Assembly (NCBI GenBank): GCA_030748895.1
Contig: JASMLC010000004.1
Span: forward strand, 62,001 to 126,000
Origin: Candidatus Poseidoniia archaeon
Lineage (GTDB): Archaea; Thermoplasmatota; Poseidoniia; MGIII; CG-Epi1
Length of the DNA stretch: 64,000 bases
Direction of reading: 5' to 3'
Shown: positions 19,332 to 24,025 of the stretch, piece after piece
How positions within the stretch are numbered: the stretch's first letter is position 1
Layout: every line of letters begins with the position of its first letter
Notes under the pieces: model-generated
What the model saw: only the letters and a program-made list of their open reading frames with translations
What the model was told of the DNA's origin: nothing
Database searches by the model: none
Position numbers and translations under genes: made by a program

Positions 19332-20075
19332 ATGAATGGAGACGACTTCGACCTCTACAACACGCCTCGGGGGCTGAAGCCCATCACCAGTCCCATCAAG
19401 CGGGGAATCCTGAACTTGCTCAAGGACAGCCCGCGGACCCAGCGGGAAGTCATGGCCTCGATTGGGCGAGCGCAGTCTACGACTGCGCGTCACCTGCTTG
19501 AACTGGAAGCGGCGAGTCTGGTTAGGTCATCGGTAGACCCCGCGGACTCCCGGCGCAAGGTCTATCACCTCACAGGGCGGCTCGCTGCCACGGGTGGAGG
19601 ACCCACTAATGCCTTCTCCAGCTATTTTACCCAGACCGTCCGCAATGGACTGGCCAATGATGCACCACTGATGGAGCGCATCAACCACGGCCTGCGCTAC
19701 GTTACCCAATCATGGGGACTCTCGCTCGACTCGATGCTGCGCGAAGTGGGGCACGATATCGGAATCCAGATGGCGGAAAGCCTTGACAGCAGTGCGGAAC
19801 TGGATGCCGTGATTGAGAGTCTTGCAACGCTCTGGGAGGATAACAAGATGGGGCTCATCGAGAAACATCAGGATAATCCACTGGTCCTGCGCATAGACGG
19901 AAACTACGACTGCACCGGCGTCCCCGATGTGGGCAAGCCGCTCTGCGCTCTCGACGAAGGCATCATGGAGGGTGTCCTCTCGAACTCCATCGGTGGTGAC
20001 TGGAAAGTCCGTGAATTCGCCTGCCACGGCACCGGGCACGACCACTGCCTGTTCAAGGTCGAGCCCCCCTGGTGA
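19332..20075 (+). CDS. Winged-helix (ArsR-like) regulator with C-terminal V4R ligand domain
   Basis: 247 residues. The N-terminal HTH (about 18-75: KRGILNLLKDSPRTQREVMASIGRAQSTTARHLLELEAASLV) is followed by a basic wing. The C-terminal part (about 110-244) fits a V4R domain (4-vinyl reductase type), with Cys194, Cys205, Cys231, His232, His236, His238 and Cys239 as candidate metal or cluster ligands. V4R domains bind small hydrophobic or metal-linked ligands. The divergent arrangement with coxCBA suggests it controls oxidase expression in response to redox state, metal or a small molecule, and perhaps itself. Confidence 0.82.
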   Translation: MNGDDFDLYNTPRGLKPITSPIKRGILNLLKDSPRTQREVMASIGRAQSTTARHLLELEAASLVRSSVDPADSRRKVYHLTGRLAATGGGPTNAFSSYFTQTVRNGLANDAPLMERINHGLRYVTQSWGLSLDSMLREVGHDIGIQMAESLDSSAELDAVIESLATLWEDNKMGLIEKHQDNPLVLRIDGNYDCTGVPDVGKPLCALDEGIMEGVLSNSIGGDWKVREFACHGTGHDHCLFKVEPPW

Positions 20076-20108: not shown

Positions 20109-20451
20109 ATGAACCCGCTGCTAGAAATCCTGCTGGTTTCAATGCGAGATGCGTTCCGGCAGGTTGCAGTTTTCGTAGCGGTAATGGTGCTGCTCTTCTC
20201 CTGAATCCAGTACCGCACGGCAGGTGGACTAGTTGAATTACTGCAACGAAAAAGGCGCTGGCAGCCACTGACTGGTGCACTGATGGGGCTGACTCCCGGC
20301 ACTGGCGGCACACGCTATCTCACAGGATGGCGATGCGCTCTTTCCGCTGCTGGCGCGCAATCGCATGGCGTCGCTCTGGGCGACTATCCATACCACTGTC
20401 CCGGCACTGCTGGTCGGCACTATCCTCTACCTGCTCGACTTCAGCGCCTGA
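20109..20451 (+). pseudogene. Decayed multi-helix permease (putative manganese/ArsP_2-type transporter remnant)
   Basis: This region (20076-20536) has no intact gene. Reading from the ATG at 20109 gives MNPLLEILLVSMRDAFRQV and a helix, then an in-frame TGA at 20202. The same frame continues IQYRTAGGLVELLQRKRRW and GALMGLTPGTGG, resembling the N-terminal part of 10-helix putative manganese/ArsP_2 permeases. After 20326 a frame shifted by +1 reads GDALFPLLARN and VPALLVGTILYLLDFSA, then TGA at 20449-20451, as in the middle of that family. The intervening region and the rest are missing. So: one stop, one frame change and a large deletion. The family name is from memory of motifs. Confidence 0.55.
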
Positions 20452-20460
20452 TGGCCCTTA

Positions 20461-20536
20461 CGCCATATTTATTGCATAAATAATACAATCAGATTACAAT
20501 CATAATCTTTTTATAATACATTGTATCGGCCATTCC
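20461..20536 (+). promoter_or_regulatory. AT-rich promoter with three nested palindromes upstream of the metal operon
   Basis: The box TTTTTATAAT (about 20508-20517) lies about 25 bp before the ATG at 20537, predicting a leaderless mRNA. Inverted repeats: ATTTAT-tgc-ATAAAT (20467-20481), GATTA-6-TAATC (20492-20507) and ATACA-t-TGTAT (20516-20526). The last sits between the TATA box and the start, an ideal repressor site. ACAATCA also occurs twice as direct repeats. The ribbon-helix-helix protein encoded in the operon is the likely binder. Confidence 0.55.
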
Positions 20537-20791
20537 ATGAGCGAATGGAATTACACCAGTTGCTCGAAGCCCTTCGATTCAGTCGAGGAGGCGCTCGAGT
20601 TCATGCAGGCGCGAAAATTCTCCGGGCAGGTGCTGAAGCGGACCGAAGAGTACACCGCAGTCTGCCCGACCTATCCCGAAGGCTACTACCCCGACGCGGT
20701 TTCCGTCGCGTCCTACGCGCCGGAGAGCGGGGTGACGCTCGCGGCCGACGAAGGCGAGGCTACAGCCGACTGCTGTGGGAGCTGCTGCTAG
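20537..20791 (+). CDS. Small Cys-tailed protein of unknown function
   Basis: 84 residues, no family recognised. An N-terminal alpha/beta region (WNYTSCSKPFDSVEEALEFM...) precedes an acidic segment and the terminus DCCGSCC. Cysteines are at 9, 43, 79, 80, 83 and 84. The clustered C-terminal cysteines suggest metal binding. It is first in an operon with a metal-sensor-like RHH protein (1-bp gap) and a ZIP transporter. It could be a metallochaperone or metal buffer. That role is inference. Confidence 0.7.
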   Translation: MSEWNYTSCSKPFDSVEEALEFMQARKFSGQVLKRTEEYTAVCPTYPEGYYPDAVSVASYAPESGVTLAADEGEATADCCGSCC

Positions 20792-20792
20792 C

Positions 20793-21035
20793 ATGGGCCG
20801 CCGCTCGCACTACGCGATTACCAAGGTCTCGGCCGACCTGCCGGCGGCGCTGGTACAGCAGCTGGACGGCTGGAAGGGAGAAATCCAGGGCATCAACCGC
20901 TCGCGGTTGATTTCGGACCTGCTGCGCTGGGCGCTCGACCGCGGGGCGGTTGACGAGCTCTACCCGGAGTGCGAGTTCGACCACAAGCACGCTGACGCCG
21001 AGGCGGATTGCGGCTGCCACTGCGTGACCTGTTGA
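20793..21035 (+). CDS. Ribbon-helix-helix regulator with Cys/His-rich tail
   Basis: 80 residues from the ATG at 20793. The N-terminus HYAITKVSADLPAALVQQLDGW forms the beta strand and first helix of an RHH fold. GINRSRLISDLLRWALDRG is the second helix, with the usual N/R-S-R cap. The tail has Cys60, His64, His66, Cys73, Cys75, His76, Cys77 and Cys80. It therefore looks like a NikR-style idea in miniature: an RHH DNA-binding domain with a metal-binding end, but far shorter than NikR and without its ACT domain. It probably represses this operon in response to Zn or a similar metal. Confidence 0.75.
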   Translation: MGRRSHYAITKVSADLPAALVQQLDGWKGEIQGINRSRLISDLLRWALDRGAVDELYPECEFDHKHADAEADCGCHCVTC

Positions 21036-21037
21036 CG

Positions 21038-21805
21038 ATGGACGACCAGACCTTTCTCTTTCTGCTGGCGGCCATCATGTTCGCCGGCGCGCTGGCGTTC
21101 GGCTACATCCCGCTCGGCTTCCGCTTTTCCCACGCGCGGCTGGAGCAGTTCATGGCGCTCGGTGCCGGGGTGCTGGTCGGCTCCGCCTTCCTGGTCATCA
21201 TCCCCGAGGGGCTGGAGCTGACGCTGGGCGCGGCAGCCGGAATCGCGCCGCTGTTCCTTGGTGGCGCAATCCTGGCCGGCTTCACGCTGATGCTATTGCT
21301 CGAGTTCTTCGGGCTGCCGCACGCAGTCCACCACGAGGCGGACCGCGAGCTGCTGAGCCTCTCGGCAACCATCGGACTGATCATCCACGCCTCGGCCGAC
21401 GGGCTGGCGCTAGGCGCCTCGGTCACCAGCAGCACCGAGACGGGTCTGATTGTCTTCGCCGCCATCATGCTCCACAAGGGGCCGACCGCCTTCGGGCTCG
21501 CCTCCTTCCTGGCGCACATCGAGACCGGGCCGGCGCGGTCGCGGCTCTACCTGCTGCTCTTTGCGCTGACGTCGCCGATTGCCGCAATCCTCGCCTTCTA
21601 CACGCTGCGCGACAGCGCGCTAGCAAGCGACGACAACGTGGGTCTGGCACTGCTCTTCTCGGCCGGCACGTTCCTCTACGTCGCAACGGTCGACGTGCTG
21701 CCCGAAGTGCACAGCCACGACCACGAAGGCGAGTCACCAACCAGCTTCGTCATCCTGGGGATGCTGCTGGTGCTGATAGTCGCGCTGCTCGGGCCGGGGC
21801 ATTAG
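21038..21805 (+). CDS. ZIP-family divalent metal transporter
   Basis: 255 residues, about eight helices, inner membrane. Helix IV carries IIHASADGLALGASV and helix V carries MLHKGPTAFGLASF, the positions of the metal-binding H-x-x-x-(E/D)-G and HKxPxxxG motifs of ZIP proteins. A His-rich piece (VHSHDHEGE) is near the C-terminus. The family imports Zn, Mn or Fe into the cytosol. The ATG at 21038 lies 2 bp after the RHH stop; an upstream in-frame start would overlap that gene. Context suggests Zn-responsive regulation. Confidence 0.88.
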   Translation: MDDQTFLFLLAAIMFAGALAFGYIPLGFRFSHARLEQFMALGAGVLVGSAFLVIIPEGLELTLGAAAGIAPLFLGGAILAGFTLMLLLEFFGLPHAVHHEADRELLSLSATIGLIIHASADGLALGASVTSSTETGLIVFAAIMLHKGPTAFGLASFLAHIETGPARSRLYLLLFALTSPIAAILAFYTLRDSALASDDNVGLALLFSAGTFLYVATVDVLPEVHSHDHEGESPTSFVILGMLLVLIVALLGPGH

Positions 21806-21848: not shown

Positions 21849-22744
21849 ATGCGACCCGCACGCGCGCTGCTGGCCGGGATGGTCGACTACGCCGGACTCT
21901 TCCCGCCGGCGCAGCTCCCACTGGACGATGCGGTGCGCGAATACGCTGCGCACCTCGGCGACGCGGAAGCGTGGATGCTGGGGCGCTTCATCATCCCGGC
22001 GCAGCGGCTGGGCGAGCTGGAACCGCACCTCAGGGCGTTCCCGGAAACACTGCGAATCGCCGCGCTGGGGAAGGGCGGTCGTTCCGAAGACGAATATTTA
22101 AAGAATATTGACGCCGACCTCGCCGCCATCAAAAGCTTTCGCGCTGCGCACGGCGACGCGGTCGCGGTCGAGAGTTTCGAAGCGCGGCTGCCGCCGCTGC
22201 CGGTCGCCGCCGACTTCGTCGCGGCAGTCGCGGAGCGGCTGCGCGGGGCCGGGCTGGCGCAGTTCCACGAGTTCGCGGTCGGCGACCATCTCGAAGCGAC
22301 GCTGGCAACGCTCGCCGCTGCCGGGGCAGGAGCGAAGCTGCGCTGCGGCGGCGTGAGCGCCGACGCATTCCCGGCGCCCAAGCAGGTTGCGCGCTTCATC
22401 GTCGCCGCGCGCGACGCCGGCGTCGCCGCCAAGTTCACCGCCGGGCTGCACCATCCGGTGCGGTACTTCGACGAAACCGTCGGGACCGAGATGCACGGCT
22501 TCCTGAATCTTTACGTCGGCGGGATGCTGGCGCACACGGCGGGGCTGGGCTGGCAGGAATTGGCGGGAATCATCGCCGACCAGTCGCCCGACGCGTTCGC
22601 GCTGACCGGCGTCGGCGTCGAGTGGCGCGGGCGGCTGGTGCGCGCCGAGGATGTAGCGCGGCTGCGCGAAAACGCGCTGCTGGGGCAGGGGAGTTGCTCT
22701 TTTGCCGAGCCGGTGGCTGACCTGCGCGACATAGGATGGCTCTG

Positions 22745-22745
<1 letters not shown>
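21849..22745 (+). CDS. Uncharacterised protein coupled to fumarylacetoacetase
   Basis: 298 residues, cytoplasmic, no signal or helix spans. It opens with RALLAGMVDYAGLFPPAQLPL and has alternating beta/alpha segments (PETLRIAALGKGG, AVAVESFEARLPPL, AQFHEFAVGD, AKLRCGGVS, VAAKFTAGLHHPVRYFD), suggesting a TIM-barrel-like fold. Conserved-looking polar spots are KFTAGLHHPVR and EMHGFLNL. I recognise no named family. It shares TGATG with the fumarylacetoacetase start, so the two are coupled. A role in maleylacetoacetate isomerisation or a neighbouring tyrosine-catabolic step is a hypothesis only. Confidence 0.7.

Positions 22746-24025
<1,280 letters not shown>

Follow-up and report, generated by a model that had tools for sequence, protein, structure and literature searches.

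The window, a stretch of 64,000 nucleotides (G000:C4:62001-126000), belongs to the genome of a Marine Group III (MGIII) archaeon (G000; 1.41 Mb, 97% completeness). Described here is a compact operon at positions 20461–21805 of the window, in which a ribbon-helix-helix (RHH) type protein of 80 amino acids (aa) with a Cys/His-rich C-terminal tail is encoded directly before a metal transporter. The 80-aa protein is probably a zinc-responsive RHH autorepressor controlling zinc acquisition in MGIII; this reading is carried by the computed conservation of the tail, the adjacency of importer genes, the geometry of the operator, the further operator sites at zinc-type genes and the shrinkage of the operator in one relative (G008). 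The features of the locus are:

20466–20482, no strand: perfect inverted repeat with 7-bp arms, TATTTATTGCATAAATA, at the upstream edge of the operator
20479–20507, + strand: predicted operator, two 11-bp units (AATAATACAAT, CAGATTACAAT) and the partial unit CATAATC
20491–20508: dyad AGATTACAATCATAATCT, inside the predicted operator
20508–20517, + strand: TATA-like box TTTTTATAAT, abutting the operator, 19 bp before the ATG; the same layout recurs in relatives
20537–20791, + strand: 84-aa protein with the C-terminus DCCGSCC; its gene heads the operon in the window genome only
20793–21035, + strand: 80-aa RHH-type protein, proposed zinc-uptake regulator; residues 10–46 align with RHH proteins
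20970–21032, + strand: codons of the Cys/His tail, residues 60–80, CEFDHKHADAEADCGCHCVTC, the proposed metal site
21038–21805, + strand: ZIP-family metal transporter, 255 aa

The three open reading frames (ORFs) are separated by gaps of 1 bp and 2 bp; this tight packing and the DCCGSCC end of the first product, both stated in a preliminary description of the locus, were confirmed from the ORF coordinates and the 84-aa translation. The third gene belongs to the ZIP family (PF02535, 7.7e-34, 117.8 bits versus a cut-off of 35.1); no solved structure matched it below 0.01. For the products of genes 1 and 2, no Pfam or NCBIfam model was over its cut-off. The G+C content of the promoter (20461–20536) is 27.6% versus 63% for the window, and the spacing between TATA-like box and ATG makes a leaderless transcript probable.

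Of the residues of the 80-aa protein, the last 21 include 5 Cys and 3 His, as had been described, and the other 59 include 0 Cys and 1 His; no C-terminus is richer in Cys/His among the window's 318 six-frame ORFs with a length of 60 aa or more. The gene was found in 9 of 98 relatives searched, namely the window genome and eight genomes of the sister genus g2 (61–72% identity to the window protein); a profile search of 339 Poseidoniia genomes returned 10, the tenth being the remnant in G008. Within the tail, C60, H66, C73 and C75 are present in 9/9 proteins and H64 in 8/9; two further Cys follow C75 in 8/9 (one in G016), their positions being slightly shifted in the window protein. The ratio of nonsynonymous to synonymous polymorphism (pN/pS), calculated from six g2 sequences of equal length, was 0.095/0.713 (0.13) for the core and 0.167/0.892 (0.19) for the tail; synonymous sites are near saturation, so that the direction alone is meaningful. 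The tail is thus conserved and under purifying selection. The preliminary description had staked its proposal on the tail being conserved in relatives, and it is kept in all nine proteins. An RHH protein with such a tail was found outside the MGIII family in none of the 339 genomes of the class or 292 genomes of the phylum; a scan of GTDB for tailed RHH proteins gave 8 loci, every one from genomes already in the comparison set.

The gene following the RHH gene encodes a ZIP transporter in two genomes (window, G012) and a ZnuA-type protein in six; in the ninth (G010) the contig ends. The proposed coupling of the Cys/His-tailed protein to metal uptake is borne out by these loci, and two non-homologous importers appear to swap behind one regulator. 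In the six genomes znuA begins directly at the stop codon of the RHH gene or a few bases later, and the products are long His/Asp-rich lipoproteins. A gene for an ABC ATPase follows znuA in G011, G013, G017 and G018, together with a permease gene (cut by the contig end in G017); in G015 ATPase and permease are on a separate contig, and in G016 the contig ends before them. Pfam matches at locus L035 were: ZnuA (PF01297) 1.7e-24, ABC_tran 3e-30, ABC-3 2.4e-57, cobW 3.8e-58 and DUF5679 2.1e-15. Among NCBIfam models, the zinc models AztC/AztA/AztB fit the ABC genes best, though below cut-off.

Side observations on these loci: the ZnuA-like lipoproteins in L017, L020 and L023 are unusually long (780–1115 aa), with long His/Asp/Glu/Gly repeats; the L023 copy has EF-hand matches, and part of L017 reads N. 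A gene of DUF4430 type (L035:2209-2679) is divergent from the RHH gene in 8/8 g2 loci and absent in the window and G008.

The RHH fold is inferred from statistics that are good but weak, and the assignment by sequence is of moderate strength. All 9 members match phrog_4738, annotated 'transcriptional repressor' (window protein 1.5e-4, best 3e-7). Residues 10–46 align in register with RHH_1 proteins (14 proteins, hand-picked from 30 loci) at E 0.0036 and probability 9.1, a weak value; in 100 column shuffles used as the control the maximum probability was 3.4. The N-terminal strand and two helices of the superfamily are accordingly recognized in sequence register by way of phrog_4738 and the weak RHH_1 alignment. 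No solved structure matched this alignment below E 0.38. The AlphaFold monomer has helices at 18–30 and 36–49, as an RHH fold predicts.

One rival explanation is that the protein is a common antitoxin of CopG/BrnA type, or an RHH repressor of plasmid type, whose gene lies by chance near a transporter. A weak BrnA match (0.033 for the window protein, 0.0086 for that of G013) speaks for it, but the score is 14.3 bits against a cut-off of 60, no toxin-like neighbour was seen by eye in 9 genomes, no relative was found in 72,556 plasmids, 50,697 phages or a scan of viral contigs, and an importer gene is adjacent in 8/8 visible loci; this explanation is regarded as highly improbable.

Each of the nine RHH operons is preceded by units of the form NN-TAATA-NN-AT, which recur every 11 bp and are followed by TAATC and then by the TATA-like box. 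The self-match of the nine promoters at lag 11 was 0.495 versus 0.332 ± 0.022, a value reached in 0/500 dinucleotide shuffles; lags 3, 5 and 8 were likewise raised (0/500 each), because the unit contains short AT repeats. The nine promoters are homologous and hence not independent tests. Taken one by one, the lag-11 signal is significant in some promoters (0/300 shuffles in G000, G010 and G016) and not in others (54/300 in G018, 43/300 in G013). The RHH operons carry 2–3 units, and in 8/9 of them 29 bp separate the end of the operator from the ATG (30 bp in G013). In the window the ATG at 29 bp is that of the 84-aa gene, which therefore sits between the promoter and the regulator gene. The promoter had been described as dense in palindromes: the inverted repeats at 20466–20482 and 20491–20508 are indeed present, but the main structure is the tandem 11-bp array, and palindromes as the operator were replaced by this array on the basis of the lag-11 self-match and the layout in relatives.

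The array was turned into one pattern, and 21 genomes of the family were searched with up to 2 mismatches. This gave 24 sites in 11 genomes (reversed pattern, 7). Thirteen of the 24 are at 0–1 mismatch, all of them in those eight g2 genomes whose RHH gene is intact; no site of this grade was found in the 12 other relatives, and the site of the window genome is at 2 mismatches. Matches at RHH promoters follow from the design of the pattern; the other sites are independent of it. Such independent sites lie before DUF5679 genes in G010, G011, G016 and G018 (0–1 mismatch) and in G013 (2 mismatches). In G011 (L157:2862-4034) a perfect operator, found in this genome only, lies 27 bp before the ATG of a Pyr_redox_3 flavoprotein gene, possibly a further zinc-regulated gene. 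Five matches at 2 mismatches (G012:C80, G006, G015:C5 and two in G007) look like chance.

COG0523 genes are present in 4 of the 21 genomes (G010, G011, G013, G016), all with the RHH gene, and in 4/4 the array separates COG0523 from a DUF5679 gene that diverges from it; the COG0523 protein also matches the ZigA model. DUF5679 has an array without COG0523 in G018, G009 and, weakly, G015; the RHH match is absent in G009, but the contig starts inside znuA and the assembly may lack the gene. Over all these loci, with or without COG0523, the arrays before DUF5679 comprise 4–7 units in six genomes, with one clear unit beside the TATA box in G015. Where DUF5679 follows ZIP (G006, G008, G012, G014), no array was found before DUF5679. 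One operator is thus common to the RHH-ZIP/ZnuABC operons and all 4 COG0523 genes; an array shared by importer, COG0523 (a zinc-chaperone-type GTPase) and the DUF5679 zinc ribbon has the appearance of a Zur-like zinc-starvation regulon.

These targets bear on the signal. The same architecture might respond to Mn, Fe, Ni, Co or Cu, or to thiol/redox changes in the Cys-rich tail. In favour of this, the ZnuA-like protein has matches to several substrate-binding models for Mn/Fe, and a redox-type MsvR-like regulator is encoded upstream. Against this, a Cys-rich, tetrahedral-type ligand set suits zinc, the best models for the ABC system are the zinc ones given above, and the operator is common with COG0523, a pairing described as typical of zinc regulons in a survey (PMC2770081). 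Another signal is considered rather unlikely.

A natural deletion was found in G008. The gene before ZIP (L042:1495-1593) reads MSRSSRYVLYPEYEHNHKHEANIDCDCTLGCS, 32 codons by eye, and the profile search detected positions 50–78 only; an in-frame deletion has taken out the RHH core, C60 and the last Cys have changed, and the promoter has one operator unit versus two or three elsewhere. This pattern fits loss of the regulator followed by loss of the operator; an assembly error is the alternative. The remnant has also to be weighed for the reading in which the array is read by a different regulator and the tail of the RHH protein serves as a metal buffer or chaperone by the importer: a tail-only frame is retained before ZIP in G008, the similarity of the RHH core is weak by sequence, and its binding to the array is a prediction. 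However, the arrays with 0–1 mismatch are confined to g2 genomes in which RHH is intact, loss of the core goes with a shorter array, the core is conserved more than the tail, and the G008 tail, without C60 and the last Cys, looks like decay. A different regulator is judged improbable.

For the preferred reading, zinc-responsive autorepression by the RHH protein, the following mechanism is proposed. RHH dimers would occupy the tandem 11-bp units, each about one helical turn, up to the abutting TATA box; with units one turn apart, successive dimers would lie on one face of the DNA, and their tails could share metal ions. With ample cytosolic zinc, the tail would be ordered by zinc or would bridge neighbouring dimers, and the array would fill cooperatively. 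As the array ends where the TATA box starts, bound protein should block TFB/TBP, turning off its own operon and, in relatives, the COG0523/DUF5679 genes as well. When zinc is scarce, the array would empty and the importer would be made (ZIP in the window, ZnuABC in most relatives). We infer that the array is bound by the RHH protein, that the metal is zinc and that the metal-bound form represses; the last point is an economical guess, after Zur and NikR. A bolder version is offered tentatively and has somewhat less than even chances: metal sensing would have arisen a second time, independently, in proteins of the RHH fold. A disordered tail, folded by zinc or cross-linked by it between neighbouring dimers, would gate the cooperative coating of the array against the archaeal TATA box and TFB recognition element (BRE). 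Each gene would receive its own zinc threshold from the length of its array (2–3 units at the importer, up to 7 at COG0523/DUF5679).

Several observations weigh against zinc-responsive autorepression. In the window genome the operator array is the only site at ≤2 mismatches, with no second target. The DUF5679 sites are 58–59 bp from the ATG of this gene, and a second TATA-like box lies nearer to it. No Pfam RHH model passes its cut-off (RHH_5 at 0.18 in 2/9), and the AlphaFold monomer is poor (predicted local distance difference test score, pLDDT, 62), the expected strand being modelled as a helix; a poor single-chain model may be expected, because the ribbon forms in the dimer only. ZIP and ZnuA families also transport Mn or Fe. 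Among the 20 other genomes of the family, 11 are without any RHH match and G008 has the remnant only, and in G003, G005, G006 and G014 ZIP has no adjoining RHH gene; the regulator is therefore dispensable. The gene before ZIP is of VOC type in G006 and G014, and it looks as though a module of RHH gene and promoter had been inserted between these two genes, or lost from there; for G003 and G005, reading by eye suggests a homogentisate dioxygenase as the preceding gene.

In the sister genome G005 (L161:2009-4004) ZIP stands in a block with this HmgA-looking gene and a pair encoding a 298-aa protein and a fumarylacetoacetase; the same pair is found in the window at 21849–24025, and the metal module was therefore set, it would seem, into an aromatic-degradation block.

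The 84-aa gene has another distribution. Its family (A4) occurs in 7 of the 339 Poseidoniia genomes, and it adjoins the RHH gene in the window alone (0/8 relatives), so that the three-gene operon as a conserved unit was rejected. Invariant columns of the family include C9 and C43, and most members have Cys near the C-terminus; the model is strand-helix-strand of low confidence (pLDDT 67), and a fold search with it gave no useful match (best E 0.66). Weak Pfam matches were Se_S_carrier 0.014 (2/7) and DUF5417 0.019 (1/7). A metallochaperone had been suggested for this protein; its Cys content is the sole basis, and no zinc genes were found beside the family members in the other six genomes. The gene is probably co-regulated with the RHH operon in the window, since its ATG stands at the fixed distance from the operator. 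The earlier idea of a one-component metal sensor controlling its own uptake is accordingly retained for the RHH-like protein, its tail and the coupling to importers, to which the operator shared with further zinc-type genes adds support, and given up for the three-gene order; the metallochaperone is unsupported.

Just upstream of the operator (20109–20448) lies a broken gene, matched in three fragments by the heavy-metal exporter family ArsP_2 (3.8e-4, 9.6e-4 and 1.8e-13); it has a stop and frame changes, its middle is mostly gone, and it is read as a metal exporter pseudogene adjoining a metal importer. The MsvR-like regulator (19332–20075) has helix-turn-helix and V4R domains (NCBIfam MsvR 183 bits, under the cut-off of 220) and a Cys/His-rich stretch close to its end; its neighbours are the metal operon and cytochrome oxidase genes, and it is a possible redox sensor.

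The literature searched, which included no bioRxiv preprints and few subscription journals, yielded neither a zinc sensor of RHH type nor a zinc regulator of MGIII. The protein is probably a zinc regulator of RHH type whose operator code can be read and whose regulon is small, so far in one family of marine archaea. If true, this would add a new class to the known zinc sensors, one from uncultured archaea of the ocean whose operator, regulon and natural deletion mutant are at hand, and zinc limitation could be read from the transcripts of these archaea; protein (80 aa) and operator (29 bp) are small, and metal and DNA binding are directly testable in vitro.

Among known systems, NikR likewise joins an RHH part for DNA binding to a C-terminal part that binds metal, and acts on a metal-uptake operon. 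Its C-terminal, tetramer-making metal-binding domain is absent in the 80-aa protein, in which about 30 residues follow the RHH part and only about 21 form the Cys/His-rich tail; the targets here are of zinc type, and the NikR operator is a split dyad, unlike the tandem 11-bp array. NikR models gave no match to the 80-aa protein in Pfam/NCBIfam scans. According to a 2019 review (PMC7055735), no RHH protein other than NikR is metal-regulated. Repressors of the Arc/CopG/AmrZ type are also small RHH proteins acting on repeated half-sites, according to PMC4803016 and PMC3325190. Unlike the MGIII protein, they are without a metal tail. We know of no metal response for repressors of this type. For archaea, section 12 of a 2009 survey (PMC2770081) reports no Zur or Fur homologues and gives, as the only candidate for zinc uptake, a predicted DtxR-like ZntR for znuABC and COG0523 in Methanosarcina. 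The predicted targets of ZntR are similar, but it is MntR/DtxR-like and of another lineage, and DtxR/MntR models did not match the 80-aa protein. Regulons of Zur, of the Fur family, typically include zinc importers and COG0523 GTPases (PMC6103462 and PMC2770081), a target set of the same kind as the present one, whereas the protein fold, a winged helix in the Fur family, is unrelated: no Fur-family model matched the 80-aa protein. If the assignment is true, the RHH protein would be a third unrelated fold for the control of zinc uptake, beside Zur and ZntR.
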